A stretch of 64,000 nt of DNA from Acetobacterium sp. KB-1 (GTDB lineage: Bacteria; Bacillota; Clostridia; Eubacteriales; Eubacteriaceae), in assembly GCF_003260995.1 (NCBI RefSeq), contig NZ_CP030040.1, positions 804,578-868,577 of the forward strand, written 5' to 3'. A program made the position numbers and the translations under genes. Under the pieces are notes generated by a model that had not been told where the DNA came from, did not search any database, and saw only the letters and a program-made list of their open reading frames with translations. This document shows positions 32,524 through 59,895 of the stretch, piece by piece. The stretch's first letter is position 1; each line of letters begins with the position of its first letter.

Positions 32524-34473
32524 ATGAACCTGAAGTACCCCAATCTTTTTTCCCCCATCAAAATTGGAAACATCACCTACAAAAACCGGATTTTTTCGGC
32601 ACCGATCTCGTTGCAGGAACTGTCCCCGGAACTTACCTTAACTCAGGAAAACATTGCCTTTTTTGAGCTGCGGGCCAAAGGCGGCGCTGCCAATGTTACC
32701 GTTGGTGTTGCCAATGTGCTGGACACCGGTCGTGGTCATACCAAGGAACTGGCGCTGGATAATCCTCTGATTATGCCATCCCTGACCCATTGTGCCCGAA
32801 CCATCCGACGCCATGGTTCAATCCCCAGCATTGAACTGTGCCATGCCGGAATGTTTGCCGGTCTGCCCAATCTGGAAAATCCCCATCCCACCAATATCCC
32901 TTATGGACCGCTTTATGAAGTAGCCGCAGATGGTACTGTCGTACGCCCATGGGATGAAGGAATGATCATGGAATTAGTGGAAGCTTTTGCCAATGGTGCC
33001 CGCCTGGTTAAAACCGCTGGTTTTGAAATGCTAATGGTGCATGCCGCCCATGGCTGGTTGCTGAGCCAGTTCATTTCGCCGACAAACACCCGCTGCGATC
33101 AGTTCGGCGGCAGTTTTGAAAACCGCATGCGCTTCCCGGTAATGGTCTTAAAAGCGATCCGCGAAGCCGTCGGACCGGGCTTCCCGATTGAATTCCGAAT
33201 GAATGCCGTGGAGCTTTTTGAAGAAGGCCATGGTTTGGATGAAGCCATCGAAATCGCTAAATACGTTCAGGAATATGTGGATATCATCCACGTCAGCGCT
33301 GGTAATCAAAAAATCGGCGAAACCTTTGTCCGTACCCATCCGGATATGTTCCTGCCACATGGTGTCAATGTCGAATATGCCGCTGCGATTAAAAAGCATG
33401 TCAACATCCCGGTAGCAGTAGTTGGTGCCATTACCGATCCGGACCTGTGCGAAGAAATTATCGCTTCCGGCAAGGCCGATATTGTAGAAATGGCCCGTGG
33501 CCTGATGGCTGATCCGTTCCTGCCGCAAAAAGCCATGGAAGGCCGTGATCAAGACATCCGTAAATGTATGCGCTGTCACGTCTGTTTTGACACCATCATT
33601 ATGACCCGTGATACCGCCTGTGCCCTTAACCCGGTTATCGGAGAAGAAGAACTGTACTTCTCGCCACCAGCGGCCCCAGCGAAACTTAAAAAAGTCCTGG
33701 TTGCCGGCGGCGGTCCTGGCGGTATGCAGGCAGCCATTACTGCGGCCGAACGCGGTCACAACGTGATTCTCTGCGAAGCCACCGACAAATTGGGCGGCCA
33801 GATTCTTTGCGAGGCTCATGTTGATTTCAAGAAAAACTATTTTGAATTTGGCCAATGGTTAATCCATCAGCTGGAACAACTGGATAACGTCGAAATCCGC
33901 TTAAACACCCGAGTTGATGCCAAACTTGTTGACGAAATTAAACCAGATGCCTTAATTTGTGCCCTGGGTTCGGACCCACTGGTTCTGGACATTCCTGGAA
34001 TTGATGACGAACGTGTCATCTATGCCGCAGAGCTGGCCAAAGAAAATCCGAATATCGGTCAGAAAGTGGTTGTCATCGGCGCTGGTCTGGTTGGCTGTGA
34101 ATCCGCCATTCACTTCCTCCGCGAAAAGAAAGACGTCACCCTAATTGAATGCCGGGATGATTTTGCCGTCGATGCCAATGCTTTCCATAAAATGGCTTTA
34201 AATATAAATCTTCGCGATGGTGCGGATATCCGTCTTAACACTACGGTTAAAGCCATTACCAAAGCTGGTGTTGTTGCGGTCGATCAAGATGGCAATGAAG
34301 TGGTTTTCCCGGCGGACACGATCTTCTGTGCAGCTGGCATGAAATCCAAATCAGAAGATGTTGAAGCACTGCGTGGTTCCGTCATGGAATTCTGGCCCAT
34401 CGGTGACTGTGTCAAACCGGGCAAAGTTCAAACCGCCATTCAGCATGGTTATTATGCGGCTCTTGACTTATAA
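32524..34473 (+). CDS. FMN/FAD/Fe-S enoate reductase (Old Yellow Enzyme, 2,4-dienoyl-CoA reductase type)
   Basis: Flavoenzyme of 649 aa expected to reduce the C=C of an enoate or enoyl compound with NAD(P)H. The N-terminal half (about 1-365) is an OYE TIM barrel for FMN; HAAHGWLLSQFISPTNTRCD is its typical active-site strand. A cysteine cluster KCMRCHVCF followed by CALNP (about 356-376) should hold a [4Fe-4S] cluster, although its spacing is C-x2-C-x2-C-x11-C rather than the more usual C-x2-C-x3-C. The C-terminal half carries FAD/NAD Rossmann motifs AGGGPGGMQAA and VIGAGLVGCESA. Control is probably by the divergent LysR protein. Substrate cannot be read; clostridial relatives act on cinnamate- or bile-acid-type enoates. 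Confidence 0.92.
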   Translation: MNLKYPNLFSPIKIGNITYKNRIFSAPISLQELSPELTLTQENIAFFELRAKGGAANVTVGVANVLDTGRGHTKELALDNPLIMPSLTHCARTIRRHGSIPSIELCHAGMFAGLPNLENPHPTNIPYGPLYEVAADGTVVRPWDEGMIMELVEAFANGARLVKTAGFEMLMVHAAHGWLLSQFISPTNTRCDQFGGSFENRMRFPVMVLKAIREAVGPGFPIEFRMNAVELFEEGHGLDEAIEIAKYVQEYVDIIHVSAGNQKIGETFVRTHPDMFLPHGVNVEYAAAIKKHVNIPVAVVGAITDPDLCEEIIASGKADIVEMARGLMADPFLPQKAMEGRDQDIRKCMRCHVCFDTIIMTRDTACALNPVIGEEELYFSPPAAPAKLKKVLVAGGGPGGMQAAITAAERGHNVILCEATDKLGGQILCEAHVDFKKNYFEFGQWLIHQLEQLDNVEIRLNTRVDAKLVDEIKPDALICALGSDPLVLDIPGIDDERVIYAAELAKENPNIGQKVVVIGAGLVGCESAIHFLREKKDVTLIECRDDFAVDANAFHKMALNINLRDGADIRLNTTVKAITKAGVVAVDQDGNEVVFPADTIFCAAGMKSKSEDVEALRGSVMEFWPIGDCVKPGKVQTAIQHGYYAALDL

Positions 34474-38174: not shown

Positions 38175-38215
38175 ATAAAACGGTCCTTCTGCCTTAAACA
38201 GGCAGAAGGATCGGT
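38175..38215 (-). terminator. Intrinsic terminator after the CooC-like gene
   Basis: Minus-strand ATCCTTCTGCCT pairs with AGGCAGAAGGACCG and is followed by TTTTATT. It closes the five-gene operon that starts at 43126. Confidence 0.8.
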
Positions 38216-38266: not shown

Positions 38267-39070
38267 CTAACCTTGATTCAATAATTTTTCAGAAATCGCC
38301 TGAACACGCTGGACCGCCTGTGAATCTGCAGGCAGCTCGGTGAGCGGTTTACCCACCGCATCATAGGCCACAATATTTTCATCTAGATCGATGATTCCTA
38401 AAACCGGCACATTCATCGCCTCGATCGACTGTTTCAGTACCGTCTCATCGAATCCGTCAGGCACTCGATTGATGACCACCCATAGTTTGCGACAATTAAT
38501 AACCCCATCCTCGGTCACCATTTTCCGGATATGGGCCACCGTCTCCCGGCCGCGCGACGAGGTATCTGTGAGAATGATCAAATCATCCACTTCACTGACA
38601 ACCTGCCGATTGATCTGTTCAAGGCCTGCTTCCCCATCGATCAGAATCGTATCAAAAGTCTGCATTAACAATTCGATGGAACAGCGCAGCAAGGTATTAA
38701 CAGAGCAATAGCAGCCCTGGGTTTCTGAACGACCCATGGCCAGAAATGCCAGCTGATCCGTTTCAACCAGGGTATCCAGCACCAGATAATCCAGCAAATT
38801 AGCCAGTTTCGTTTTATCGTCGGCATCGCCATGTTTTGCGGTGTCAATAATCGTTTCGCGGACCTGCCCCATGGTTCGTTCGGCCTTAATCCCGAGGGTA
38901 TTTGGTAAACCAATGGCCGGATCGGCATCAATGACAATCAACTTTCCGGCTTTTTCATTGATCATCAGGGCCTGGGTCAGCATGGCGGTAAAGGCCGTTT
39001 TTCCCACTCCGCCTTTTCCGCAGACGGCAATAACGCGTTTAGTTTGGTTGCCAATTTCACAGTTTTTCAT
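38267..39070 (-). CDS. CooC/AcsF-type nickel-insertion ATPase
   Basis: MinD-like dimeric ATPase of 267 aa from the ATG at 39070 (AGGA upstream; longer in-frame starts overlap the preceding gene). The deviant Walker A is GKGGVGKTAF (about residues 18-27), followed by DADPAIGLPNTLG. A CxC metal motif stands at Cys120 and Cys122 in GRSETQGCYCSVN, the signature of CooC proteins that load nickel into CO dehydrogenase or acetyl-CoA synthase. Walker B-like TILIDGEAGLEQ follows. It overlaps the acetyl-CoA-synthase-like gene by 14 bases. No CO dehydrogenase catalytic gene is in the window, so its client may be the neighbouring protein. Confidence 0.9.
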   Translation of the reverse strand: MKNCEIGNQTKRVIAVCGKGGVGKTAFTAMLTQALMINEKAGKLIVIDADPAIGLPNTLGIKAERTMGQVRETIIDTAKHGDADDKTKLANLLDYLVLDTLVETDQLAFLAMGRSETQGCYCSVNTLLRCSIELLMQTFDTILIDGEAGLEQINRQVVSEVDDLIILTDTSSRGRETVAHIRKMVTEDGVINCRKLWVVINRVPDGFDETVLKQSIEAMNVPVLGIIDLDENIVAYDAVGKPLTELPADSQAVQRVQAISEKLLNQG

Positions 39071-39845
39071 GATTTTTTCCTGCTTCTTTCTGATAGGCGC
39101 CACTGATTTTTTTAACTTCCTGACAGACATCCTTTTCCTCACAGGCGCCGCAGTGTCCGCCGGGTTTACACTGGGAAATATCAACGCCCCGTTCTTCCCA
39201 GATTTTTCGTTTCATTTCCTTGACCATCTGACTGACTGGTTCGCCCAGTTCTTTCAACCCGAGGACATCCTGTTTTTCGGAAGTCACAAACAAGATGCTG
39301 ACGGCTTCGGCAGGGGGAAATTCCGCTTTGATCCGGCTGATCAATGCTTCCCCGATCCGCTGAAAACTCAAACCTTTTGCTGCAGCCTCATAACTGATTC
39401 GACACCAGATGTTTTCGAGGGTGCTTTTGATCATGAACCCTTCACACAGATCCGCCGGTATCGAATAATTCAGCAGCGCAAAGCGGTCTTCTTCAGTCAG
39501 TGCCCTGCCTGCAATCAGAATGACCAGTCCCAAAGGCATCTGCTTATTTTCGCTTTCCGCCACTTCACTGCCAATTACAATGATCTCCCCATCATTGATG
39601 CTGTCGTCACTTGCTGAACAGACCACAAACGACATGGAACCGGCTGCGGGGCTTCCCAGTTCAAGAAAGGTATCTGATCTGAGCACGATCGTTGACCCGG
39701 ATTTTTTACTGCTGTCTGCTTCGAACGGCCGCACCGTTGCCTGATATCGCCTGACGTTTTTTTTCAATCCGTCCAATTTATTAACGTAGTTAAAAATGCT
39801 CTTGCTTATTTCGTTAAATTCAATTGCTTCATTAATTTCACTCAT
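39057..39845 (-). CDS. Acetyl-CoA synthase beta-like protein, truncated, with C-terminal Cys cluster
   Basis: Protein of 262 aa. Its main part (about 50-190) resembles the middle domain of acetyl-CoA synthase (CdhC/AcsB): IVLRSDTFLELGSPAAG, DGEIIVIGSEV, PLGLVILIAGRALTEEDRFA, ENIWCRISYEAAAKGLSFQR and IGEALISRIKAEFP. A cysteine set C-x5-C-x2-C-x5-C (Cys226, 232, 235, 241: QCKPGGHCGACEEKDVC) stands where the A-cluster ligands of the full enzyme begin. The C-terminal A-cluster domain is absent, so it cannot be a normal synthase. It is next to a CooC-like ATPase and a dehydratase activator. Start chosen at 39845; two upstream in-frame ATGs lack ribosome sites. Confidence 0.8.
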   Translation of the reverse strand: MSEINEAIEFNEISKSIFNYVNKLDGLKKNVRRYQATVRPFEADSSKKSGSTIVLRSDTFLELGSPAAGSMSFVVCSASDDSINDGEIIVIGSEVAESENKQMPLGLVILIAGRALTEEDRFALLNYSIPADLCEGFMIKSTLENIWCRISYEAAAKGLSFQRIGEALISRIKAEFPPAEAVSILFVTSEKQDVLGLKELGEPVSQMVKEMKRKIWEERGVDISQCKPGGHCGACEEKDVCQEVKKISGAYQKEAGKNHEKL

Positions 39846-39846
39846 C

Positions 39847-40653
39847 TTAGCACTCGCCTGTTTTGACATGATTATTACAATACGCATCGCGACCCAACAG
39901 CGCGGCCCCTAAGGCCCCTGCGATTTGCGGGTTTTCAGATAAGGGGGCCAGTTTAAAGTTCAGTCGCTTTTCCAAACTGCGAATTAACGCCTGATTCTGG
40001 GCACACCCGCCGGTCAAGACCACTTCTGCTTTGATACCGGTTTTATTTGCCATGGAAAAAATACGTCGGGCGATTGAATCATGAATGCCCGCTGCAATAT
40101 CGTGTATGTCAGCCCCTTTGTTGATCAGGGTGACCACTTCGGATTCGGCAAAAACGCTGCATTGTTTGGAAATAGCGACCGGATTATCAGATTCAAGGGC
40201 AAATTTAGACAGCTCTTCCAGCGAACAATCCAAGGCTCTCCCCATGGCCTCAAAAAATCGACCAGTGCCGGCGGCACATTTGTCGTTCATCATAAAATCA
40301 AAAATTTTTCCCTGATTATTCAGCGAAATCACCTTACAGTCCTGCCCGCCAATATCAATGACAGTTCTGACGTTAGCGTTCATCCAAAAGGCCCCATGGG
40401 CATGACAGGTAATCTCAGAGATGTTCGACTGGATAAATGACACCCCTTCCCGACCATAGCCGGTACCGACAATCGTTGACAGGGCCTCCCGCGAATCCAA
40501 ACCGGCTTTTGCAATAGCCTTTTCCAGAACAGTCTGCGCCGTCTTTTCGGGATTGCCTTTTGAATTCATGACCGCCCAGGAAATAATTTTTTCATCGTCA
40601 ACGATCACCGCTTTGCCAGTGGCCGAGCCTAAATCACATCCACAATAATACAT
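39847..40653 (-). CDS. ATPase activator of 2-hydroxyacyl-CoA dehydratase type (BadF/HgdC family)
   Basis: Homodimeric [4Fe-4S] ATPase of 268 aa that injects low-potential electrons into its partner. ASKHA-fold motifs: GCDLGSATGKAVIVDD at the N-terminus, VIDIGGQDCKVISL (about 98-111) and VVLTGGCAQNQALI near 213. Cluster cysteines are Cys126 in NDKCAAGTGRF and Cys165 in ISKQCSVFAESEV, the usual pair. RBS GGAGAG. It lies downstream of the two dehydratase-like subunits and just upstream of the acetyl-CoA-synthase-like gene. Archerase-type function is known for the family; its client here is inferred from the operon. Confidence 0.93.
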   Translation of the reverse strand: MYYCGCDLGSATGKAVIVDDEKIISWAVMNSKGNPEKTAQTVLEKAIAKAGLDSREALSTIVGTGYGREGVSFIQSNISEITCHAHGAFWMNANVRTVIDIGGQDCKVISLNNQGKIFDFMMNDKCAAGTGRFFEAMGRALDCSLEELSKFALESDNPVAISKQCSVFAESEVVTLINKGADIHDIAAGIHDSIARRIFSMANKTGIKAEVVLTGGCAQNQALIRSLEKRLNFKLAPLSENPQIAGALGAALLGRDAYCNNHVKTGEC

Positions 40654-40677
40654 ATTTTTCTCTCCATTATTTAATGT

Positions 40678-41979
40678 CTATTTTTCACTTAAGCCGGTCA
40701 CTCTGAAAAATTCGGATATTTGTTTCTTAACCTCTTCCATCGGAGTATAGCGTTCATCAAACAAGCTGGTTGTCAGACTTAACAACGGTACGTCTAAATC
40801 TTTGCACAGTTCTTTTAAAAACTTAGTCGTTGCCGATTGATCTTTATGGCCCATATGGCCCGGGAAAATGACGCAGTCAATGCTGTAATCTTTCACAATC
40901 CGGGTGATGTCTTCCAGAAATACTTCAACGGTTCCGCGGGCCTGTCGAATCATCGGGACTTCGGCGGTTGATCGTCGCGCCAGGCCCAGCAGCATGCTTT
41001 CCGGTGTTGATGTATCGATGGGGGTATAAGGTGCGTATCCCTGAAAGTCCATAACCACATTGGCCTTCCATTCTTCTGCAAGCCACTGCCCCAACTCTTC
41101 ATTCCATTGCGGGGCTAGGTCGGCCCACAGAATTCGGATCTGCTCATCCGGAACTGCTCCGATCCCAGCTTTAACCTTTTGTTCCGCATCATAAACCATC
41201 ATTTGCAGCAGTTCAGTTGCCTTTTGTTGGCCAGCCCGGACATGCTGGGTAATCGGCCAGGCAACGACCGATCCTTGAAATGATCCGCCCGGACAGGGAA
41301 CGGCTCGTCTTAATTCATTATATTCAGCCCAGGTTTCATACTGACGATTGGTTTCTTCAATCACCGCTCTTAATTTGTCATAATCCATTTTAACGCCGGG
41401 GTGCACCGCCTCCAGAAAAGTGATCATTCCTTTGAGTTCATTGGCAAAATATTGATAATCCTCTTCACTGGTGCCATAGCCATAATCCAATGAAAAATCC
41501 GGAACGTTTGCCCAACCGTTATGTTTAAAGGATTCGTGCATAACCGGTTGGGCATCGCATGGTTCGAGCATCGCCAGCATTGCAGTTGGTTTTGGCACTA
41601 AATGATCCTGGACGGCATAGGTGCTGAGACGAATCAGCGAGCAGATATCATCCGGCAGCGAAATCTTATCCGATTCTTCTAGATCATAGAGTTCGGTCAT
41701 GTACATATGTCCCAGAATATTAAAAACGGGATTAAAAAAATGAATGTCCATTGCCGCCAGAATCTCCGAGGCGTTGCCATACCAGGTGGACACCATTGGT
41801 GCTCCGGTTTCAATGCATTCCAAGGTTTTTTTATCACTTTCCATAACCAGATTGATCAGCCCAATTAAGACCGGGTTTTGCATTTCTGGTGGGGCACTTT
41901 GAATCATCCCTAAAACATGTTGCCATCGGCCGATACATTCCTGGGTACGCTGTACCCCGGGTACTGATTGATTTGTCAT
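40678..41979 (-). CDS. 2-hydroxyacyl-CoA dehydratase / benzoyl-CoA reductase-like subunit, larger
   Basis: Protein of 433 aa of the HgdB/BcrB superfamily. The family binds a [4Fe-4S] or double-cubane cluster with three conserved cysteines. Here Cys113 (DDICSLIR) and Cys141 (LEPCDAQ) match, but the third position, normally Cys before Lys, reads GHMGHKD with His378. The cluster site is therefore altered or lost. Other family features, such as the long helical insertion around 195-260 and the terminal Rossmann-like domain, are retained. RBS GGAGGG. It is adjacent to the 381-aa subunit, which has a complete cysteine set. Substrate is not deducible. Confidence 0.88.
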   Translation of the reverse strand: MTNQSVPGVQRTQECIGRWQHVLGMIQSAPPEMQNPVLIGLINLVMESDKKTLECIETGAPMVSTWYGNASEILAAMDIHFFNPVFNILGHMYMTELYDLEESDKISLPDDICSLIRLSTYAVQDHLVPKPTAMLAMLEPCDAQPVMHESFKHNGWANVPDFSLDYGYGTSEEDYQYFANELKGMITFLEAVHPGVKMDYDKLRAVIEETNRQYETWAEYNELRRAVPCPGGSFQGSVVAWPITQHVRAGQQKATELLQMMVYDAEQKVKAGIGAVPDEQIRILWADLAPQWNEELGQWLAEEWKANVVMDFQGYAPYTPIDTSTPESMLLGLARRSTAEVPMIRQARGTVEVFLEDITRIVKDYSIDCVIFPGHMGHKDQSATTKFLKELCKDLDVPLLSLTTSLFDERYTPMEEVKKQISEFFRVTGLSEK

Positions 41980-41980
41980 T

Positions 41981-43126
41981 TTATTTTCCCTCCAATGTTT
42001 CCTGAAATGCCTGAACCCGGGTTTTCAGCTGACCGATACCGGTAAGATTATATTCGATTTCCAATTTTAAATGTGGCAGGTTGTTTTCCTTGGCATAACG
42101 GGCAAAATCATCCTGTTCGTAAGCGAAGATATCGCATAGCAGCAATCGGGCACTGATGATCCCGTCAACCTCGCCGTCTTTGGCCAGTTCCTTAATCTGC
42201 TCATAGCGCTGTAAGCTGGTTCCATAAGTCCGGGGATCTGATGGCCGTTCATTGAGATAGTATTGACTGATTGCCGCCAGCGGATCGCCGGTTTCAGAAA
42301 TATCCTTTAGACATGAACGGGTACCATACCAGAGCAGATCGGTGACGACCATTGCGCCCTGACTTTCCAGTACCTCAATGAAATTGGGATCATCAATTTC
42401 TCCGCCGATAATCATTAACCGCGCTTTTGGTTTTTCCGTCCCAGTCTGATTTCTTAGTTCATCCAGCAGCGCTGCCAACCGAATATTGTATTCTTTTTTA
42501 GGCATCGAGTAACCGGCAACCATCACCGCCAGAACATCGGCCCCGGATATCGGCGGTTTTTCTTTTTTGCGCAGTTCATACAGTTTGCGCTGCAATTTTC
42601 GGGTCTTATTGTGCAGCTGAACGGCTTCGGTTAACTTTTCATCGGTTATTGCAACATCATAGGTTGCTTCAATGCTTTCTTTGAGTTTTTCAAGCTCCTT
42701 TGTATAAAGCGCGGTCTGAAGATCCCCCAGTTTTTGCGGTACCACCAGAAAGTGAAAACACAATTCCGGATTTCGCTCTTTCCAGTTTTCAAACAAGCGC
42801 CGGAGATGGTCGCAGGCATTAAAGGAAACCACACCGTCAAGAAAATCAAATTGATTTTCCAGAACCATTTCATAATTATAGCGGACATAGCTGCAATTGA
42901 TCTGACTGAAGTAGGCATCCGAAAGATCGGTACTGTCGGCTCCGGTTCCGCGAATTCGATACGGCATGATGCCAGCGGCTGTAAAAAGCTCTTCCGGAAC
43001 ATTGGCATAATAATAACCCACAACTTTTCCGCCATTTTTTTTCCATTCTTTAATCGCTTCATTGTTTAAGTTCTTAGCAACATCTCTAAAAAATTCCAAT
43101 GAATTGGTTTGATTCGATGTACTCAT
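41981..43126 (-). CDS. 2-hydroxyacyl-CoA dehydratase / benzoyl-CoA reductase-like subunit, smaller
   Basis: Protein of 381 aa, first gene of the operon. The entry strand GGKVVGYYYANVPEELFTAA is typical of HgdB/HgdC-like and BcrC/D-like proteins. All three cysteines expected for the cluster are present: Cys78 (QINCSYVR), Cys105 (FNACDHLRR) and Cys331 (LLLCDIFAYE). It probably pairs with the 433-aa subunit; together with the activator this is a complete ATP-driven reductase set. RBS AGGAGG. No CoA-transferase or acyl-CoA ligase gene is nearby, so the substrate may not be a CoA thioester. A LysR-like palindrome and a -10 (43199-43204) lie upstream. Confidence 0.9.
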   Translation of the reverse strand: MSTSNQTNSLEFFRDVAKNLNNEAIKEWKKNGGKVVGYYYANVPEELFTAAGIMPYRIRGTGADSTDLSDAYFSQINCSYVRYNYEMVLENQFDFLDGVVSFNACDHLRRLFENWKERNPELCFHFLVVPQKLGDLQTALYTKELEKLKESIEATYDVAITDEKLTEAVQLHNKTRKLQRKLYELRKKEKPPISGADVLAVMVAGYSMPKKEYNIRLAALLDELRNQTGTEKPKARLMIIGGEIDDPNFIEVLESQGAMVVTDLLWYGTRSCLKDISETGDPLAAISQYYLNERPSDPRTYGTSLQRYEQIKELAKDGEVDGIISARLLLCDIFAYEQDDFARYAKENNLPHLKLEIEYNLTGIGQLKTRVQAFQETLEGK

Positions 43127-43235
43127 TTAATTCCTCCTGCGTTTTTAAAGATACTCAGTCTTCAGATTTCTGTTCTTCTGTAAACGTTCTTATCTAAAAT
43201 TATAAAGGGCCTGTTGATAAATATAAAACGAAACC

Positions 43236-43437: not shown

Positions 43438-45000
43438 TTAGCTGCTTAAGCTCATATAACAGGATATTAAGATATGCATTGTAACCGCATCATCGGATAA
43501 ATCGACATTCATCATATCGATAATTTTAGTGATTCGATAATTAAAGGTATTCCGATGGATAATTAACTTTTCGGCCGCTTGAGCGATGTTTCTCCCGCAC
43601 AAAAGATAAACATATAAATTCATTACATAATCCGTCCCGTTTTTTGTATCATACTGGCTGAGGGTAATCACATCAGGATGCAGCAATACTGATAAATCGA
43701 TACTCTTTGAGCACAGATCGATCATGTGTTTCATAAAGTAATTTGTATAATGATAAATTTTCTCTTCGCCCTTAGTCAGAAAACCCAAAGATAAGGCTTT
43801 GACTGCCTGTTTGTAATAAAACAAAATGTTATAGTAATCACTAAATTGATTGCTGATCCCACAATAACAGTGTAATTTGTCAATTATTTCCCCCAGCAAA
43901 GTATGTACTTTTTCGTAGGTATTCACTTCTGTATCTATTTTTATTACCGCAACAATCTGATCTCTGTATTTAAAAACAATTGACTGCGGTAATGTTTGAT
44001 TAATAAAATTTACACAAAATTCATAGTAAACCGTCTTTTTTTCATTCTTTGAAAAATCTCCCGAATAAAAATAATCAAAATTTATCAAATAGTATTGATC
44101 TTCGAGTTTCCAATTTCGCTTTGATAACTGATACTGTACCGTTTCACGGTCAATTTGCTTTCCCGAAATCAACCGGAAGGTTACATAATCGATACCTTGG
44201 GTAGAAATCATATAGTTATGATTGTTGCTGATCGCATCGGCAAATACCTTTGACAGGTGGTTTACAATACTTAATTGACCAAAAGTAAATGGTGCAATCA
44301 AATCTACAACACCCATATTGCCTACTCTTTTTTCATTGACAAAAATGTTTGCGATCATATGTTTATAGCGTTCTTCTTTGTAAAGCGAACTTTTTTGCTC
44401 GGTTATATAAGCGTCCTTGGCTTTCATTAAGGTATCAACATAGGTTCTGTCATAGGTGCTAAAATAATCGACACTTATTTGGCCAAACTGAACAACCTCA
44501 AGCCAAACGGTTTCATCGTAATTACTTGGTAGGTTGCCACTTTTGGCTAAACAAATCTGGGTATTATCAAACAAAGCAATCGGATTCGTTAATTTTTCAT
44601 ATCCGATATCAAGAATCGATTGCAGGTCGTGTTTATCGATTATCGATTTTTTAAGCCGTTCATCCCATAAGTTATAAGCATCAAATACACCCAATATTCT
44701 ATTGAGCACGTCGGAAATTGGGCTTTCATTATTGATTAAAAGATAATCGACATCTTTAAAAACTGCTAATGACGCGGCATCAGCAGTTCCAATTAAAATG
44801 ATGCCGGTAGCAGCCTCAAAATGGTCATACGTCTGAAACTGTTCAGTCAAACCGACATAAACATAGCCTGTTTCAAATAGATCGCTATTCGAATTTAAAA
44901 GTCTCGCACTGATAAGGTTCAATTTTTTATTTTCGCTTAGATGAAGCGTCGGTTTTAAATCTACTATTTGATCTGCTATAATTTGCATGTTTATTTTCAC
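43438..45000 (-). CDS. PucR/CdaR-type transcriptional regulator 1
   Basis: Regulator of 520 aa. The C-terminal about 65 residues form the PucR-type helix-turn-helix (NIAQAAEKLIIHRNTFNYRI, then TKIIDMM). The remainder contains an N-terminal sensory part like the purine-catabolism/CdaR regulators and a degenerate GGDEF-like middle. Start is GTG with GAGG upstream; an ATG follows four codons later. It is placed next to the GcvT-like gene at 45279 and likely controls the island. The second regulator of the same family, at 57060, is only distantly similar. The effector could be the island's substrate. Confidence 0.85.
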   Translation of the reverse strand: MKINMQIIADQIVDLKPTLHLSENKKLNLISARLLNSNSDLFETGYVYVGLTEQFQTYDHFEAATGIILIGTADAASLAVFKDVDYLLINNESPISDVLNRILGVFDAYNLWDERLKKSIIDKHDLQSILDIGYEKLTNPIALFDNTQICLAKSGNLPSNYDETVWLEVVQFGQISVDYFSTYDRTYVDTLMKAKDAYITEQKSSLYKEERYKHMIANIFVNEKRVGNMGVVDLIAPFTFGQLSIVNHLSKVFADAISNNHNYMISTQGIDYVTFRLISGKQIDRETVQYQLSKRNWKLEDQYYLINFDYFYSGDFSKNEKKTVYYEFCVNFINQTLPQSIVFKYRDQIVAVIKIDTEVNTYEKVHTLLGEIIDKLHCYCGISNQFSDYYNILFYYKQAVKALSLGFLTKGEEKIYHYTNYFMKHMIDLCSKSIDLSVLLHPDVITLSQYDTKNGTDYVMNLYVYLLCGRNIAQAAEKLIIHRNTFNYRITKIIDMMNVDLSDDAVTMHILISCYMSLSS

Positions 45001-45278: not shown

Positions 45279-46628
45279 TTATGCTTTATATCGGGGAATT
45301 TGTTCAACATCAAAAATACTGTTATTTTCCATTACAACATAAGGAGTTTGAACCACTTTTACGCGTACGTCTTTTTGTGGAAAACCAGGGCTGCCCCAAA
45401 CAACTGTCAATTCGGTGCCTTCTTTGGCAAATTCTTTGTCAATAAAACCTAAAGAAATCATTCGTTGATAGTAAATACTATTGAGTCTTCCTGCTGATAC
45501 CCCAACCATCTTATCTCCGGCCATAACCTTGTCATGGTGATAATAGTAATGGTCTTCTTCATCTTCAGTCATAAATGGATTATAATTGTAATCTGTTGGA
45601 TACTCATCCATTGGTTCATATGCCTCGACATCACGGCCTTTGAACTGTGACGCGACGATATCGGCAATATCATCGGGATTCCATTCTAACGTAACTAATG
45701 TTGTTTTTTGATTTTCAGCTATTTTCTGAAGTGCTTCTTTACCAGGAAAATCATGGTTGAATTTTACTCGGGATCCCCAACCCACATCAAATGGTGTTCT
45801 GAAACGTACTTCAAGATCATCCCCAACACTTCCGAGAAGGGCTCTTTTATGGAAGGTTGTATGAGGGGGATTTTCTTCCAGATACTCTCTGATTCCTGGG
45901 GTTTCCTGCAATGGCAATGGATAATGGATGTAAATATTTGGGAATCCGCCTTCGGTATGGTTCATGCAATATGCCCGTGAACCAAGTTTTTTCGCTCCAA
46001 ATGGTTTTGCTGCCTCCCAGATGCTGCTGTACACTTGCTCTAATTTATCCATATCTCCGTGCAGCTCATAAGCCAAGGTACCAGACATTCCCAAACGTAA
46101 GATACGTACATCAACATCTGCAATTTTTGCCATCCGATGTTTTACATATCCGATATCATGTAAATCACACTTGCCGGCATTTTCAAGTATTTCCAGTGAT
46201 TTAGGGCCAGCAACTTGAATAAAGAATTCGGTACCAGTTAAGTCAGTACCCACAATATCCATATCTGTTATTGACACATAATAATCAATGACTGGGCTTA
46301 GCCAATAACACCGGAAGGTATCTTCGGCAATTTTCATGACAACGCCGTCAGTTAAAATCTGTCCTTTTTCATTACAAAGGATGCAGTGATTGATTCCACC
46401 CACTTTTGTCGTTGTAAAATCGTTTACACTAATTGATGTCATGAACTTAGCTGCGTCAGGTCCTTTAATATCATAAACCGGTGAAATACACAATTGTGTA
46501 CTGACATATGCACTTGTTTTGCTGGCTACAACTTCTTTTCGATACCCTGTATACTCATATGGTGATAAAATACCAGCATGATTACTAAATAAAAATGCCC
46601 CTTTATTGATTACTTCTGAATTAAACAT
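45279..46628 (-). CDS. GcvT/LigM-like tetrahydrofolate methyltransferase 1
   Basis: Protein of 449 aa of the aminomethyltransferase (GcvT) superfamily, which moves one-carbon groups to tetrahydrofolate. It shows the GcvT folate-domain patterns SPVYDIKGPDAAKFMTSISV, GQILTDGVVMKIAED, FFIQVAGPKSLEILENAG, RLGMSGTLAYELHG and GKEALQKIAE. Overall size and the family resemble LigM/DesA O-demethylases, which make methyl-THF without corrinoid, or DmdA. A second member lies at 60941. RBS AAAGGAG. The substrate is unknown: methoxy, N-methyl or S-methyl donors are all possible. In an acetogen the methyl-THF would feed the Wood-Ljungdahl pathway. Confidence 0.88.
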   Translation of the reverse strand: MFNSEVINKGAFLFSNHAGILSPYEYTGYRKEVVASKTSAYVSTQLCISPVYDIKGPDAAKFMTSISVNDFTTTKVGGINHCILCNEKGQILTDGVVMKIAEDTFRCYWLSPVIDYYVSITDMDIVGTDLTGTEFFIQVAGPKSLEILENAGKCDLHDIGYVKHRMAKIADVDVRILRLGMSGTLAYELHGDMDKLEQVYSSIWEAAKPFGAKKLGSRAYCMNHTEGGFPNIYIHYPLPLQETPGIREYLEENPPHTTFHKRALLGSVGDDLEVRFRTPFDVGWGSRVKFNHDFPGKEALQKIAENQKTTLVTLEWNPDDIADIVASQFKGRDVEAYEPMDEYPTDYNYNPFMTEDEEDHYYYHHDKVMAGDKMVGVSAGRLNSIYYQRMISLGFIDKEFAKEGTELTVVWGSPGFPQKDVRVKVVQTPYVVMENNSIFDVEQIPRYKA

Positions 46629-47032: not shown

Positions 47033-48283
47033 CTAGCCTTCAATCGGTATTGCTGATCCGATCTCTTTTTCACTTTTAACACCCAGCAGATAATTCAATG
47101 TTAAGGCAATTGCGGCGAAAACAATAATCAGTATGAAAGTCGAATTGTAAGAACCGCCAGATTTTTCCAGTAACGAGCTCGAAATCAACGGTCCGATCAA
47201 TGCTGCTGGAATAATCGCAAAATTCGTTAGACTAAAATTAACCGGATAATTTTTAACGCCATAAAATGAATTGATAACCGCAGATGTCAATGCCGGTGAG
47301 CCACCATAACAGGTTCCAACTAATAGTATCCCAATAAATACAAAAATGACATTTTGCGTCAAGGCGCCCAGGCATAGACATAACCCTGCTATAACTAAAA
47401 TAGAATTGTTTAATATCATTGCTTTATTTCGGCCAATCCGGTCAAATAATGTGCCGAATAGAACACGTCCGCCACCATTAAATACCGACACCATCAAGCC
47501 TAATTGTGCTGGTGCACCAAAGGCTATCGCAATCGTTGCGGCGCTATTGATAACTAACAACCCCGCCGAGCTCACCATGATGACCCATAGGAAAAAGCAC
47601 CAGAATGCGCCAGTTTTAAGCATTTCAATTGAAGTATATTCGGTTTTTCTGGCGCCGCTCGCTTCGTGTTTTATCTTTTCGTCTTTGACTGGTTTCGTCA
47701 CTTGTTTTTTTATAAAAAAAGAACCCAGCGCCATAACGATCGAAACGCCAATTGCCAGATAGAAAAAGGTCTGCAGTAAGCCAAATTGACCAATCATAAT
47801 ATTGATAAATGTGCCTAGAACCATGCCGCCAAGACCAAATCCCATCAATAATATCCCTGATGCCATTCCCGCTTTTTCCGGAAACCAGGAAATAACTGAA
47901 CTAATAATGGCATTATAGCCCATGCCGACCCCGGTTCCGCAAAGGATCCCATAAAATACATACAGCATCAAAAGGCTTTGCGCCGGTTGTTCCGGGTTAA
48001 TTTTTGAAACGCCCAGGAAGCCTGAAAACAATAATGCTGCAGCAATCAAAACGATGTGTTGATTTTTTAAGACCTTCGTCAACTTTCCACTAACAAAGCC
48101 CCCCAAGCAAAAACAAATCATCGAAATCGTAAAGCTTAACGTTAAATCCGTGGCTGTCCAGGTTACAAAAATTTTGTTGAGCGGTGCTTTGAAAATTGAC
48201 CAGGCATACAATAATCCCAGGAACATCAGCATAATCGTTCCTGCTATTAGATAGAGCCATCTTTTTTTACTTTCGACATTCAT
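47033..48283 (-). CDS. MFS transporter, oxalate/formate antiporter (OFA)-like
   Basis: Twelve-helix transporter of 416 aa. The start [26 protein letters not shown] and the helix pair [12 protein letters not shown] are typical of the OFA family that exchanges carboxylates such as oxalate/formate or lactate. The family motif region [20 protein letters not shown] (about 120-140) is also present. It is the end gene of the ptb-buk-aldehyde dehydrogenase-glycyl radical enzyme block and could export or import a carboxylate made by this pathway. RBS CGGAG. Substrate is not readable. Confidence 0.85.
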
Positions 48284-48311
48284 AATTTTCTCCGTTTTCT
48301 TAAAACATTGT

Positions 48312-49415
48312 TTAACTGCAGAATCCCTGCCAAACAGGTATCCCTGTATAGTTCAGCGCTTCTTCTTCATTGTTCAGGACCCGCAGCACTCCGGAGGCTA
48401 ATGCTTCCATTTCAAATTCACCGGCCATCACTTCTTCCGGAGCAATCCAATCAACGTATTCTTTTAAGGCAGTGACCAGATATTTACTTCTTGAAATACC
48501 GCCGGTTAAAATGATCGCATCAACTTTTCCTTTTAAAGCCACGGCACACGCTCCTACGCTTTTACCGATTTGATAAATCATTGCATCGAATATTAACCGT
48601 GCATGCTGATCGCCCGCAGCGATTCTTTTTTCCACTTCAAGCATATCTTGCGTTCCTAAATGATCAATCAGGCCGCCTTCTTTGTTAAATCTGTCATAAA
48701 GTTCTTTTTCGGTGTATTTTCCGCTAAAACACAGTTTCAATATTTTTATTGCCGGCAATGTCCCGGCACGGGTGGGAGTCATCGGTCCATCGCCGCCGAT
48801 AATGTCGTTAGAATCAATCATTCTGCCATGTTGATGGGCCGTGATCGAAATCCCGCCGCCAAGATGACATACAATTAGATTGGTTTGCTCATATTTTTTG
48901 CCAACGTTCTGACAAAATCGCAATGCCACTTCTTTTTGATTCAGGGCATGAATTCGGCTTTCTCGATAGACATCTGAAAGACCGGTAACTCTGGCGATCT
49001 CATCAAATTCATCAACGTCCGGTGGATTGACGATGTAAGCAGAACCGCCAAATTCCTCTTTGAAAGCATTGCAAATCTGAGACGCTAATTGTGCGGGATG
49101 TTGACCGGCCATCCCCTTACTGGCATGTTCTAAAAGCTTCGGTCCGATTTCATAAGTACCGCCCTTTATGGGAACCAGACCACCGCCTCGGCCAACAAAA
49201 ACATCGATACTTTCAATGGGTATATTTTCTTGCTTTAACATCTCTGTAACCATTTGTTTGCGATACGGCAACTGTTCTTGTATTTCTTTGTACTTTTTTA
49301 GGGTCACCACATCATGATTAATATTTTTACTGAAAATTATCTCATCATTTGAAAAGACTGCTATTTTTGTTGAAGTTGAGCCCGGATTAATTGCTAGAAT
49401 TTTATATTTTTTCAC
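48312..49415 (-). CDS. buk: Butyrate kinase-type acyl kinase
   Basis: Phosphotransferase of 367 aa that makes ATP from an acyl phosphate and ADP. ASKHA-type motifs: [15 protein letters not shown] at the N-terminus, [13 protein letters not shown] (about 184-196), TPTRAGTLP (about 217-225) and [12 protein letters not shown] near 308. The size and these motifs fit the butyrate kinase family rather than the about 400-aa acetate kinase. GTG start with AGGAG eight bases upstream. It follows ptb at 11 bp, forming the classical ptb-buk pair. Branched or short-chain acyl groups are all possible substrates. Confidence 0.92.
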
Positions 49416-49426
49416 TATCTCATCTC

Positions 49427-50344
49427 CTAAAAATTTTTAGCGACATAGGCCGCTAATGCCATTGAATAATATTTATCAGATGCTTCCGCAGACCGTGAAG
49501 TCAAAACAATCGGCACCTTAGCACCGACTACCAGACCGGCTGTCTGAGCATCTGCAAAACCGGTAAATGATTTTACCAGCATATTTCCTGAAACAATATC
49601 GGGAACAATCAGTAAATCTGCATCGCCCGCTACAGGACTTTGATATCCTTTGATTTTAGCTGCTTCCTTATTGGTGGCAAGATCAAAGGATATTGGTCCC
49701 TCGATAATGCAATTCTTGATTGCCCCGCTGACATTCAGCTTTTTCAAGTTGTCCGAATCGATCGTATCAGGCATTTTGGGATTCATTTTCTCAACAGCGC
49801 CCATAACTGCCACCTTTGGATTTGCCACGCCAAAGGCATGCAGGACATTCAGGGCGTTTAACAAAATCTCCTTCTTGCCATCAAAATCCGGATTGGTATT
49901 CATCCCAATATCGGATACTGCTAATAGTTTGTGGTACTTGTCATTACTGAACTGATAGAAACCGATTAATGATATCAGGCCGCCTTTTTTCAGATTACTT
50001 TCTTTATTCACAATGGCTTTCATCAGTTGGCCGGTTTCCAGCTTGCCCTTCATAATGACATCTGCTTTTTTATCATGTACGAGCTGAATTGCAATTTTCA
50101 GACAGGTCTCAACATCACCTGCCGGCACGATCTGATAGGCATCGGAAAGCTCGCCTAAATTCTGAAGGATTTCTGTTATTTTTATTTCATCACCAATGAG
50201 TATTGGAACGATCAGGTTATCTTTGGCAGCTTTCACCACACCTTCTAACGTGTGTTCATCCTGTGCGGCGACCACCGCTACCCTACTCTTTTTATCCATT
50301 TTTTGCACTTGAATAATCAAGTCAGCAAAATTTTTGATCTTCAT
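49427..50344 (-). CDS. ptb: Phosphate butyryltransferase-type enzyme
   Basis: Converts an acyl-CoA to acyl phosphate and free CoA. The 305-aa protein is a PTA_PTB-family enzyme with VPILIGDEIKITEILQN, ADVIMKGKLETGQLMKAIVN, DIGMNTNPDFDGKKEILLNA, GPISFDLATNKEAA and DLLIVPDIVSGNML as family landmarks. It directly precedes buk. RBS AGGGAG. It is downstream of the CoA-acylating aldehyde dehydrogenase gene; the three together would turn an aldehyde into an acid plus one ATP. Acyl-chain preference is unknown. Confidence 0.92.
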   Translation of the reverse strand: MKIKNFADLIIQVQKMDKKSRVAVVAAQDEHTLEGVVKAAKDNLIVPILIGDEIKITEILQNLGELSDAYQIVPAGDVETCLKIAIQLVHDKKADVIMKGKLETGQLMKAIVNKESNLKKGGLISLIGFYQFSNDKYHKLLAVSDIGMNTNPDFDGKKEILLNALNVLHAFGVANPKVAVMGAVEKMNPKMPDTIDSDNLKKLNVSGAIKNCIIEGPISFDLATNKEAAKIKGYQSPVAGDADLLIVPDIVSGNMLVKSFTGFADAQTAGLVVGAKVPIVLTSRSAEASDKYYSMALAAYVAKNF

Positions 50345-50502
50345 AATTGTCTACTCCCTTTAAATAAAACGTACCTATTGAATCTGATGATTCAGACTAT
50401 TAAATCTATTAGACAAGAAAACAAAGTCACTATTTTGTAAAACAGCATTTATTAGCCCGATCATCATTTATATTTATCCTTTTATCCGTTCGTCCTTATC
50501 AT

Positions 50503-51837
50503 TTAGAGAATATAGTTTCCGCCATCAGCCATAGCAAAGCGTCTTCTTCTTGTAAACGTACCGGCATCACAGATACCTTCGCCTGTTGGGGTGGCGATTG
50601 TAGGGCCATTTGATCCGCTGCCGCCGACCCCAAATGCAGCCAAGGTCCCGCCATTTTGAACAAAGATCGTGGTGTCGATCATTTTGCCGAAGGCCGTAAC
50701 ATTATCGATATTTTTTGACCAGATGGTTGCCGAATGTTTGTTTTCATGCTCTGCCGCAACCGCCCACTCTTTTGCCTGCTCAAAACTTTCACATCGCACG
50801 ACTGGCAAAATTGGCATCATTTGTTCGGTCTGAACAAACAGGTCATCATTTTGGGCCTCAAATACACAAATTTTCGGGTCGCCATCCACAGCAACACCAG
50901 CTTCCTTCAAAATTTTGCTGGCATGTTGACCAACCATTTTTTTATTTGCTGCATACTCACCATTTGGCAATTGACTGATCGCCACGGCCGTTACCATATC
51001 AGCTTCTGCTCGTGTTAACAGCTTGGCACCCTGTTTTAAAATTTCTGCCATAAACTTATCGTACACACTATCCAGCACGAACAGTTCTTTTTCCGCTACA
51101 CACAAAAGACCGTTATCAAATGAAGCTGATCCGAAAATCCCTACGGCAGCCTTTGCGACATCTGCCGTTTCATCAATAATCGACGGTGGGTTACCGGCGC
51201 CTGCGGCAATTACTTTTTTTCCAGATTTCATCAGCGTTGCTACCATCGCCGGTCCTCCGGTACCGACCAGTACCTTAATTACTGGCGATGCCATGATATC
51301 ATTGAGCGATTCCATCGATGGATCTTTTATCATCGTGATTAAATTACATGGTCCGCCTACTTCTGTGATCGCCTCATTAATCAGATTAACCGCATTAGCC
51401 GTGCATGCCTTTGCGGATGGGTGGGCATTAAACACAATTGAATTACCTGAAGCAACGATTGCAATTCCATTTCCGGCCACCGTCGCTACGGGATTCGTTA
51501 CTGGAGTTACGCCGCCAATCACACCAAAAGGAGCTGGAAATTCTACCGTCAGCCCCTGATTTGTCGAATATATACGATTCGGCAAAGTTTCGGTCCCACC
51601 GGCAAGCATGATCGCCCCGGTATCTTTGATAATTTTATCTTCATACCGTCCATATCCGGTTTCATCAAGCTCATGCTGAGCCAATTCTTCGATGTGCATC
51701 ATGAATACTTTTTTAATATTGGCTATATATGCCTCCCGATCATCGATTGTATGATTTTTCATCAGCTCGAGCTGTGCTATTCTAGCCGCTTCAATAGCTT
51801 CTTTTGCATTTTCGAAAACCCCTAATTGTTTGGTCAT
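50503..51837 (-). CDS. CoA-acylating aldehyde dehydrogenase
   Basis: Protein of 444 aa of the PduP/EutE-like aldehyde dehydrogenase group. The catalytic Cys is about residue 246 in FDNGLLCVAEK. Other landmarks are FGVIGGVTPVTNPVATV, VGTGGPAMVATLMKSG, GAGNPPSIIDETAD, and C-terminal FVQNGGTLAAFGVGGSGSNG. It is shorter than EutE of the same window (501 aa) and lacks the amphipathic C-terminal tail, so it is probably free in the cytosol, consistent with the absence of shell genes in this block. It should oxidise the aldehyde released by the glycyl radical enzyme. RBS AAGGAG. Confidence 0.92.
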   Translation of the reverse strand: MTKQLGVFENAKEAIEAARIAQLELMKNHTIDDREAYIANIKKVFMMHIEELAQHELDETGYGRYEDKIIKDTGAIMLAGGTETLPNRIYSTNQGLTVEFPAPFGVIGGVTPVTNPVATVAGNGIAIVASGNSIVFNAHPSAKACTANAVNLINEAITEVGGPCNLITMIKDPSMESLNDIMASPVIKVLVGTGGPAMVATLMKSGKKVIAAGAGNPPSIIDETADVAKAAVGIFGSASFDNGLLCVAEKELFVLDSVYDKFMAEILKQGAKLLTRAEADMVTAVAISQLPNGEYAANKKMVGQHASKILKEAGVAVDGDPKICVFEAQNDDLFVQTEQMMPILPVVRCESFEQAKEWAVAAEHENKHSATIWSKNIDNVTAFGKMIDTTIFVQNGGTLAAFGVGGSGSNGPTIATPTGEGICDAGTFTRRRRFAMADGGNYIL

Positions 51838-51898
51838 ATTAATAAACTCCTTATTTACATTGATTTTTCGCTGTCTTTATTAAAACAGTTTGCTTATC

Positions 51899-52873
51899 TT
51901 AAGCTAAACGATACTTCACATTTGATCCTGCCACTGCCGATACACCGTATTCTTTCATCACTTCAACCAGTTCTAAAATATTGTTTTCCCAGACTTCACG
52001 CTCCGGCATCTTATAATCATTTCCCAGTGGGTATTCTAAACCAAGTGATTCATATTTCTCCGTTCCCATTTTATGGTAGGGAAGCAATTGAACCTGGATC
52101 ACTTTATTTTGCAGTTCTTCTGCGATAAAACTTGCCGTTCTTCTAATGTTATCTTCATCGTTGTTAATTTCCGGGATAATCGGAATTCTGATGATTAGCG
52201 GTATTCCCGCATTAACGGTCTTTTGGATATTACTGAGAATTCGAGTATTCCCGCCACCGCAATACTTCATATGGCGATCTGAATTCATATGCTTGATATC
52301 TGTAATAATCAAATCCGTGTACGGAAAAAATTTCTCTAGTATTTTGAAATCACATTGCATACTTGTTTCGACCACCGTATTGACATGATTTTGCTTAGAT
52401 ACTTTCAACAACTCAAGGGAAAATTCCCATTGAACAGTGACTTCACCACCGTTTAAGGTAATTCCGCCGCCGGACTTTTGATAATAAGCCCGGTCGGCTA
52501 AAACCTGTTTCATGACTTCCTCAACGCTCATCAGCTCGCCCCATGTTTTAATTGCCTTTGAATAGCAGACATTTGCACAGACCTGACAGTCCCGGCAATT
52601 TTGGCGATCAATTTTTTGAATCCGATTTTCCATAAAAAGCAACGGAGATTCAGGTTGCAGTGGACAGACGTCAAGACAAAGACCGCATTTGTCTTTTCCG
52701 ATGCATTTGATTGGATAAATACCTAGTTCCGGTTTGGGATTAATACTTTCAGGGTTGCTGCACCATTTACAATGCATCGGACAGCCCTTTAAAAATATTT
52801 CGGTCCTTATTCCTGGGCCGTCGTGGATTGTATATCTTTGAATGTTATACACCAGACCTGCTTTACTGTTCAT
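51899..52873 (-). CDS. Glycyl-radical-enzyme activating protein (radical SAM)
   Basis: Radical SAM activase of 324 aa. The radical SAM cluster motif CPMHCKWC (Cys31, 35, 38) is preceded by [21 protein letters not shown] ferredoxin-like insert holds two further clusters: Cys57, 63, 66, 70 and Cys93, 96, 99, 103. Such inserts occur in activases of dehydratase/lyase glycyl radical enzymes and not in the simple PFL activase. I start at the ATG at 52873; an in-frame TTG 18 bp upstream is less likely. It installs the glycyl radical on the neighbouring enzyme, 33 bp upstream. Confidence 0.93.
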
Positions 52874-52906
52874 AGCTTCCACTGACTCCAATTTCTTTTA
52901 AGAATC

Positions 52907-55441: not shown

Positions 55442-55602
55442 ATTCTTTTCCTCCTCTAAATTTGTTGGGTTACACGATTTGATCATGCAACCCAACCGCA
55501 TTAATGATTGCTGATGCTATTAATCTTTTTTCACTAGATCGAAAAACGGATACGTATCATTTATCAATTTTAAAAAAGATATCAATTGAATATTTAAGAA
55601 TT

Positions 55603-56787: not shown

Positions 56788-57009
56788 TTTTCCCCTTTCC
56801 GCAGCGTTGTTTATGTTTAGTTTAAACATTGCCACACACAATCGTTAACGATTACACTAGTAACACCGTTAAGGATTGAAAAATTCATTCGTATTCGTCG
56901 CGCGCGAATCTTCATAGCGGTATTTTATCGTTTTCAGAACATCGCAATCAATGCTATCGTGCACAGACATAAAATTAACACTGTTCATTATGCACATTAC
57001 AAAACCCTC

Positions 57010-58589: not shown

Positions 58590-59895
58590 GGATCTCGCTC
58601 CTCAAAATTATTTACCTATACAATTTTTTACATTTGAATAGCTGTTTTAGCTATGATAAACCGATGATTTCCCCATCTTCGCTAATATCCATACCGTTGG
58701 CTGCCGGCACTTTTGGCAGACCGGGCATGGTCATGATTGCACCAGTAATTGCTACCACAAAACCGGCGCCGGCGGATAGACGAATTTCTTTCACGTGGAT
58801 GTCAAAGTTTCGGGGTGCCCCAAGCAGAGCGGCATCATCTGAGAAGGAATACTGGGTTTTTGCCATGCACACCGGCAGATGATCAAAGCCCAGAGCAACA
58901 ATCTCATCCAGTTGTTGCTTGGCTTCTAAACTGAAGACCACGCCATCAGCCCGGTAAATTTCTTTGGCAATGGTTTCGATCTTTTCTTCGATGGGCAGTT
59001 CCAGTGCATAAAGCGGTGTGTAAGGTGTCGCATTCTGATCACAGAGTCTGACCACTTCTTCAGCCAGCTCGACCCCGCCTTTTCCACCTTGTGAAAAGAC
59101 ATCGGAGAGCACGACTTTAACATCTTCTTTTTCACAGGCCTGTTTGATGGCATCAAATTCAGCAACCGTATCGGTGGGAAACTTGTTGATGGCAACCACA
59201 ACCGGCACGTTGAATTTTTTCAGGTTTTCCAGATGCTGAACAATGTTGGCACTGCCAAGTTCCACTGCTTTGACATTTTCGTTGGCCAATTCTGCTTTTT
59301 CAACGCCGCCATTCATTTTCAGCGCCCGTACGGTTGCCACAATCACTACCACACTGGGGCTGATGCCGGCATAACGGCATTTAATATCAAAGAACTTTTC
59401 GGCTCCCAGGTCGGCGCCAAATCCAGCTTCGGTTACCACGTAATCCGCCAGTTTCAAAGCAGTTTTAGTGGCCAGGACTGAGTTGCAACCATGGGCGATA
59501 TTGGCAAAGGGACCGCCATGAATGAAGGCCGGGGTATTTTCCAGAGTTTGCACCAGATTGGGTTTGATGGCGTCTTTTAACAGCAATTCCATAGCCCCGG
59601 TAGCTTCCAGATCGTTGGCGGTCACTGCTTTACCGTCGGTGTTATAAGCGACGATCATCCGGCCCAGACGTTCTTTTAAATCAGTCAGGCTGGAGGCCAG
59701 ACAGAGAATTGCCATGATTTCCGAGGCTACCGTAATATCATAACCGGTTTCCCGGGCAATCCCATTGGCGCGACTCCCTCTTGCAACAGTGATCCTTCTT
59801 AATGCCCGGTCATTCATGTCAACCACCCGACGCCAGACAATCCGGTCCATATCAATGTTTAAGGCATTTCCCTGATGGAGGTGATTATCCAGCAG

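Follow-up and report, generated by a model that had tools for sequence, protein, structure and literature searches.

What kind of enzyme is made by an operon that joins the genes of ATP-driven dehydratases and reductases to relatives of acetyl-CoA synthase (ACS) and of nickel-inserting ATPases? The question is raised by a 64,000 nt stretch of the Acetobacterium sp. KB-1 genome (the window; contig NZ_CP030040.1, positions 804,578 to 868,577), in which five genes on the minus strand follow each other from position 43126 to 38267 in the order HgdB1-HgdB2-BadF-ACSl-CooC, ACSl being the ACS-like protein. In our preferred reading, to which we give a probability of roughly 0.55, they encode an ATP-driven, low-potential iron-sulfur (Fe-S) enzyme of the superfamily of class I benzoyl-CoA reductases (BCRs) and 2-hydroxyacyl-CoA dehydratases (HADs), which would have an activation and metal-handling module of its own and would work by the mechanism set out below. 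In this superfamily, the ATP-driven transfer of single electrons from a BadF-type dimer to a two-subunit iron-sulfur enzyme is established. The cassette probably makes a very strongly reducing enzyme, possibly with the assistance of nickel. Each family is known, and the five-part combination appears to be new within the ATP-dependent BCR/HAD superfamily.

The Operon and Its Genes

The operon comprises the following features:

41981..43126, minus strand: HgdB1, HgdB/BzdN-type subunit, 381 aa (Pfam HGD-D, 1.1e-84)
40678..41979, minus strand: HgdB2, HgdA/BzdO-type subunit, 433 aa (Pfam HGD-D, 4.6e-44)
39847..40653, minus strand: BadF/HgdC-type ATP-dependent activator, 268 aa (Pfam BcrAD_BadFG, 9.1e-56; TIGR00241, 7.6e-75)
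39057..39887, minus strand: ACSl, 276 aa, alternative start at 39845 (Pfam CdhC, 1.4e-18, residues 68-205)
38267..39070, minus strand: CooC-type P-loop ATPase, 267 aa from the ATG at 39070, reading frame open to 39184 (Pfam AAA_31/CbiA)
38184..38210, minus strand: intrinsic terminator-like hairpin ending the operon (11-pair stem and T tail; strong)

An earlier note on this DNA had proposed a five-gene operon of these families, with short gaps or overlaps and a single terminator. The families and the operon were borne out by open reading frames on the minus strand with clear Pfam matches. In gene order, gaps of 1 bp and 24 bp are followed by overlaps of 41 bp and 14 bp, and the operon is closed by the hairpin at 38210-38184. 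For the ATPase, 39070 (267 aa) is a more probable start than 39184, in agreement with the copy in a second Acetobacterium genome, G011. The window genome has no PF06050 genes other than HgdB1 and HgdB2, and BadF matches above the cut-off were found elsewhere in this genome only in two domains of one long protein. All five window genes are open and are under purifying selection, with dN/dS values of 0.04-0.20 against G011 (for HgdB1, over the last 123 codons only).

The Cassette Recurs in Clostridia and Chloroflexota

With an ACSl alignment as seed, 84,980 species genomes were scanned; this yielded 80 loci, whose open reading frames were scored with five home-made family profiles. All five families were present in 52 of the 80 loci, corresponding to 52 of the 56 loci with enough flanking sequence. 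Among the 28 incomplete loci, 24 were cut by a contig end near ACSl, and four with adequate sequence were missing one to four genes. Given the 52/56 loci, the linkage of the five families is not due to chance, and the co-occurrence that the earlier note had put forward as a check was thus found. The hosts, which include many anaerobes of gut and sediment, belong to Lachnospiraceae, Oscillospiraceae, Acetobacterium, and Chloroflexota.

The commonest gene order was CooC-HgdB1-HgdB2-BadF-ACSl. The order of the window was also seen in two Chloroflexota loci, L126 and L144, which excludes that it is unique to this strain, the finding that the note had named as speaking against its proposal. Within the genus, the window version was present in only one other genome, G011, with proteins 91-98% identical. 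The G011 operon (L026/L127) carries an IS110-like transposase, in split reading frames, between HgdB2 and BadF and is otherwise intact. A second version of the cassette, with all five families present, was found in A. dehalogenans (G003) and in G012. In the trees of HgdB1 and BadF, the window sequence, on a long branch, joined the two Chloroflexota sequences in a fully supported group that did not include the A. dehalogenans copy. We concluded from this grouping that two cassette subtypes exist and that Acetobacterium probably acquired them separately.

Some loci differed in the number or position of the HgdB pairs. Butyrivibrio loci had two HgdB pairs and single copies of CooC, BadF, and ACSl, and one Pseudobutyrivibrio had CooC-BadF-ACSl-HypA at one site and an HgdB pair at another. 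These arrangements suggest that CooC-BadF-ACSl is an activation and metal-handling module and that the HgdB pair supplies the catalysis and can be exchanged.

The unfamiliarity of the combination, which the note had remarked on, held: we found no description of it in the open-licence literature searched, and neither a paper on the mlp gene cluster (PMC10418091) nor one on the gene context of carbon monoxide dehydrogenase (CODH; PMC13056359) mentioned the cassette.

HgdB1, HgdB2, and BadF Form a Reductase/Dehydratase-Type Core

The families supported the ATP-driven metallo-reductase or dehydratase type of core that had been proposed in the note. The best PDB match of the HgdB1 family profile was BzdN (8s02_B, 4e-55), followed by HadC and the double-cubane cluster protein (DCCP). 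The best NCBIfam model for HgdB1, NF040772 (double-cubane equivalog), scored 197 bits versus a cut-off of 350, which was not reached, and no NCBIfam equivalog was matched above its cut-off by HgdB1, HgdB2, or ACSl. The HgdB2 family profile matched DCCP and BzdO/MbdO. Structure models were made of single chains (ACSl and HgdB2), and the fold predicted for HgdB2 matched BzdO, MbdO, and HadB. BadF matched MbdQ (3.7e-82), HgdC (1hux, 4.2e-75), and also HadI; its Cys126 and Cys165 are invariant in the family alignment, and the operon has a single BadF gene.

The [8Fe-9S] double cubane of BzdN is bound by Cys 36, 73, 100, 263, 293, and 327, and the catalytic [4Fe-4S] cluster of BzdO by Cys 95, 128, and 380 (PMC11971306). 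We mapped these positions onto the family alignments. The six BzdN cysteines were present in all complete HgdB1 homologues without ambiguous bases, with the exception of the window protein, which has Y,C,C,W,D,C at these positions. The proximal Cys78, Cys105, and Cys331 are retained, and Tyr40, Trp266, and Asp297 replace the three distal double-cubane cysteines. The partial HgdB1 of G011 has W,D,C at the last three ligand positions, the only ones visible. As judged from the alignment, the window variant has lost the ligands of the distal sub-cluster, which is the same kind of step as proposed for the dehydratases: parts of the double cubane were lost, according to the authors, in the step from BCR to HAD (PMC11971306). 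Decay of HgdB1 after ligand loss was considered and was ruled out by the dN/dS values against G011.

For HgdB2, 73 sequences had C,C,C as cluster ligands, whereas the four sequences of the window subtype had C,C,H. In the window protein, Cys113, Cys141, and His378, the latter at the position of Cys380 of BzdO, would hold a putative catalytic [4Fe-4S] site.

The core shares two homologous HgdB-type subunits and an ATP-dependent BadF-type activator with the class I BCRs BzdNO(PQ) and MbdON(PQ), as well as the six BzdN double-cubane cysteines in the HgdB1 family and the BzdO fold of HgdB2. Unlike those enzymes, which have two different BadF-type activator subunits, the cassette has one activator gene and additional ACS-like and CooC proteins, the window HgdB1 is without the distal sub-cluster ligands, HgdB2 has the histidine in place of Cys380, and no aromatic CoA ligase was seen near the window operon. 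The HADs (HadBC/HadI, HgdAB/HgdC) are similar in combining a heterodimer with a homodimer-type activator from a single gene that carries the two cluster cysteines (here Cys126 and Cys165), and the window HgdB1 keeps only three cluster cysteines. The HADs have three cysteines per subunit, whereas the window HgdB2 has Cys, Cys, and His; ACS-like and CooC partners occur here, and genes of a 2-hydroxyacid pathway were not seen near the window operon. DCCP and its reductase (DCCP:DCCP-R) belong to the same superfamily and share the ATP-driven electron input, but DCCP consists of homodimers from one gene with a six-cysteine double cubane, in contrast to the two different subunits and extra partners of the cassette.

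ACSl Retains the ACS Fold without the Nickel-Site Domain

The ACSl sequence profile matched 3git in the PDB (7e-14), and ACS/CdhC were the sole significant matches of its predicted fold (E 2.1e-11). The earlier note had described ACSl as a truncated ACS. This stood for the A2/CdhC N-terminal domain, whose sequence and fold ACSl shares with the ACS beta subunit (CdhC/AcsB), and for the first Cys-x2-Cys of the A-cluster region, which could be aligned. It did not extend to the A-cluster nickel-site domain with its [4Fe-4S]/dinickel ligands and Cys-Gly-Cys, which is missing from ACSl: only PF03598 was matched, and the protein ends about 20 residues past the last motif cysteine. ACSl also differs from the beta subunit in its cysteine spacing and in an invariant Met152, which lies in a segment where ACS has the tryptophan of its CoA-binding region. 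The spacing found in 78 homologues was Cys-x2-Cys-x5-Cys, and that of the window subtype was Cys-x5-Cys-x2-Cys-x5-Cys (Cys240-x5-Cys246-x2-Cys249-x5-Cys255 in the window).

Full-length ACS was absent from five checked genomes that have ACSl. Therefore, ACSl has a function of its own and is no leftover of the Wood-Ljungdahl pathway. The window genome itself has three full-length ACS copies elsewhere. This acetogen background might suggest that ACSl and CooC are chance neighbors or remnants of a decayed CODH/ACS operon, an explanation that we regard as refuted by the linkage in 52/56 loci, by the ACSl genomes without full-length ACS, and by the intact genes with dN/dS of 0.13-0.20.

The ATPase Is CooC-Like and May Handle Nickel

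The best solved structure for the ATPase was CooC1 (3kje, 3.2e-22), with the Cys-X-Cys aligned (residues 112 and 114 of CooC1). The window protein has the P-loop GKGGVGKT and the motif GCYC, and Cys-X-Cys was kept in 56/56 CooC homologues. By this structure match and these motifs, the ATPase is specifically CooC-like. With the nickel-insertion ATPases CooC1 and AcsF it shares the P-loop and the Cys-X-Cys metal site; unlike them, it has no adjoining CODH or full ACS, and several of its genomes lack any full-length ACS.

Of the nickel chaperones HypA and HypB, the former was found in 20 and the latter in 11 cassette neighborhoods, beside an IsrA-type flavin/Fe-S reductase, which lies directly downstream of the cassette in about 20 gut loci. 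The tentative notion of the note that CooC may load a metal was strengthened by the conserved Cys-X-Cys and by HypA/HypB beside about 20 cassettes. HypA/HypB near cassettes were accompanied by an IsrA-type gene in nearly every case, so they may point to nickel in IsrA, and the evidence that they give for nickel in the cassette is only partial. At locus L087, HypA was present although IsrA and HgdB were absent from the contig. The operon of IsrA, a putative isoprene reductase, in Acetobacterium wieringae resembles these gut Clostridia loci, in which the IsrA-type reductase and HypA/HypB often adjoin the cassette; as published, it is without HgdB, BadF, ACS-like, and CooC genes, and in the window genome the IsrA-type gene is unlinked to the cassette.

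Proposed Mechanism

In the mechanism that we propose, a ferredoxin or a flavin/Fe-S oxidoreductase would reduce the BadF activator dimer, and ATP hydrolysis would push single electrons from BadF through HgdB1 and on to HgdB2, whose [4Fe-4S] site might then reduce a strong bond (C=C, C-O, or aromatic) or start a radical elimination. ACSl would dock with the module, and its C-terminal cysteines could hold an Fe-S cluster or a site of mixed metals. CooC may draw on ATP hydrolysis to put in or take out a metal, which is most likely nickel, either at ACSl or in the HgdB core. For the window variant, a shift to redox-neutral radical chemistry of the HAD kind is possible.

Neighboring Genes and Substrate Clues

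Three further features stand near the operon:

43199..43227, minus strand: sigma-70-like promoter candidate TTTATA-17-TATAAT, 73 bp 5' of HgdB1 (weak; chance matches are expected here)
43438..45000, minus strand: PucR/CdaR-type regulator, the next gene upstream (Pfam HTH_30, 1.3e-14)
32524..34473, plus strand: old yellow enzyme (OYE)/BaiCD-like flavin/Fe-S reductase, clustering by similarity with OYE genes beside 16 further cassettes and at the near-identical G011 locus

From its position only, the PucR/CdaR-type gene is a possible regulator of the operon. An OYE/BaiCD-like reductase was found near the cassette in 18 loci, including the window and G011. Membership of the window OYE gene in the operon was rejected: it lies past the terminator on the opposite strand, and the genus commonly has OYE paralogues. 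The IsrA-type and OYE/BaiCD-like reductases are plausible electron donors, and the window OYE gene could possibly act as electron donor or as a downstream reductase.

Near the window operon, no 2-hydroxyacid dehydrogenase, CoA-transferase, or aromatic CoA ligase was seen. The suggestion of the earlier note that the substrate may not be a CoA thioester turned out to be weak, because CoA-type genes adjoin the cassettes of relatives: an acyl-CoA dehydrogenase lies just upstream in L126, and an acetyl-CoA hydrolase/CoA-transferase-like gene is near the cassette in five Oscillospiraceae/Clostridia loci. On the strength of these neighbors, CoA thioesters are possible substrates. In A. dehalogenans, an aldehyde ferredoxin oxidoreductase and an Fe-type alcohol dehydrogenase are located upstream of the cassette.

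Several related genes were observed elsewhere. The window genome has an IsrA-type homologue, 45% identical to the gut type, together with HypB-like and HypA genes (L146 3222-6690, G000:C1 ~485-489 kb), unlinked to the cassette. It also encodes a very long BadF-BadF protein (G000:C1 1413362-1415068, open frame of 1413 aa), with a layout like that of the plasmalogen synthase PlsA. Downstream of the solitary Pseudobutyrivibrio HgdB pair (L149 11419-17155) are nitrogenase-like H, D, and K genes, MetK, and a nucleosidase-like gene; the set, as recognized by eye, resembles methylthio-alkane reductase. The Chloroflexota genome G744 (L151 3783-12425) encodes two tandem pairs of short ACS-like proteins, which carry the full A-cluster motif, and 835-aa CODH/HCP-like proteins.

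Within the window, a glycyl radical enzyme cluster occupies 47033-56841 on the minus strand. Its enzyme scored 1010.7 versus the NCBIfam cut-off of 1000 for (2S)-3-sulfopropanediol dehydratase and is accompanied by activase, aldehyde dehydrogenase, phosphotransacylase-like, and butyrate-kinase-like genes, a cluster that possibly serves sulfonate fermentation in an acetogen. Two GcvT-like proteins are encoded on the minus strand (45279-46628 and 60941-62350), each near a PucR-type regulator; the former matches the tetrahydrofolate-type demethylases DesA/LigM. A formate-tetrahydrofolate ligase-like gene lies at 58651-59973.

Weighing the Alternatives

Several points weigh against an ATP-driven, possibly nickel-assisted reductase in the window. 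With three of the six double-cubane ligands gone from HgdB1 and a His in place of a Cys in HgdB2, the window enzyme may not share the chemistry of the family. The nickel-site domain is missing from ACSl, whose model is unreliable near the cysteines (pLDDT <50 at 241-250). Nickel is derived from CooC homology and from HypA/HypB, which are already known to travel with IsrA relatives (PMC10134865), and no HypA/HypB lie beside the window operon. The Acetobacterium variant could be a HAD-like radical lyase or dehydratase that is redox-neutral and recycles the injected electron without net reduction, with the rest of the family being reductases. The missing distal ligands in the window and G011 (Tyr, Trp, and Asp, the last two visible in the partial G011 protein), the link of double-cubane loss to the step from BCR to HAD (PMC11971306), the single activator gene, and the acyl-CoA dehydrogenase of L126, placed as it would be after a dehydratase, all fit such an enzyme. 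The window HgdB2, however, lacks the three-cysteine set of HAD and BzdO (His378), neither 2-hydroxyacid dehydrogenase nor CoA-transferase was seen near the operon, and all six cysteines are retained in L126 and L144, the nearest relatives within the subtype; we consider this explanation unlikely.

It is also rather improbable that the CooC-like ATPase and ACSl are general parts for Fe-S assembly or electron donation in which nickel is not involved. The cysteine motif of ACSl, in a protein without the nickel-site domain, could hold a plain Fe-S cluster, and the relatives of CooC include MinD/ParA/NifH-type ATPases, but the CooC1 Cys-X-Cys in 56/56 homologues and the HypA gene of L087 argue against this reading. 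Quite unlikely is a role of the cassette as a machine for the reductive activation or maturation of another metalloenzyme, a nickel enzyme such as the IsrA type or a corrinoid protein, similar to the ATP-driven activation complex of methyl-coenzyme M reductase, with the HgdB pair as an electron conduit and not a catalyst. The IsrA-type gene downstream of about 20 cassettes with HypA/HypB and the kinship of both CooC and ACSl to nickel-enzyme machinery would agree with this, and there is precedent for the ATP-driven activation of a nickel enzyme via complex Fe-S clusters (PMC12176620). On the other hand, about half of the complete cassettes lack an IsrA-type neighbor, the IsrA-type gene of the window genome (L146) is unlinked, and the two HgdB pairs per trio in Butyrivibrio fit better to substrate-specific catalysts. 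We retain as the most likely reading the ATP-driven low-potential Fe-S enzyme with its own activation and metal-handling module. It might represent a new class of low-potential reductases driven by ATP and assisted by nickel, found widely among gut Lachnospiraceae and Oscillospiraceae and also in Acetobacterium and Chloroflexota, in which an ACS fragment was recruited, along with a CooC-type ATPase, for building or driving the metal site of a BCR-like enzyme; this is a tentative and still doubtful proposal.

Significance

BCRs and HADs catalyze reductions that rank among the most demanding in biology. To our knowledge, the known metal sites in their superfamily are iron-sulfur clusters. If the proposal is true, a BCR-like core would be tied to nickel-enzyme machinery, which would point to a new metallocofactor or a new scheme of electron delivery. 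The series from six to three cysteines in HgdB1 and from Cys to His in HgdB2 offers a natural test case for the trimming of a double cubane down to one cluster. Since members of the cassette are common in rumen and gut bacteria, the finding also bears on anaerobic metabolism in animals.

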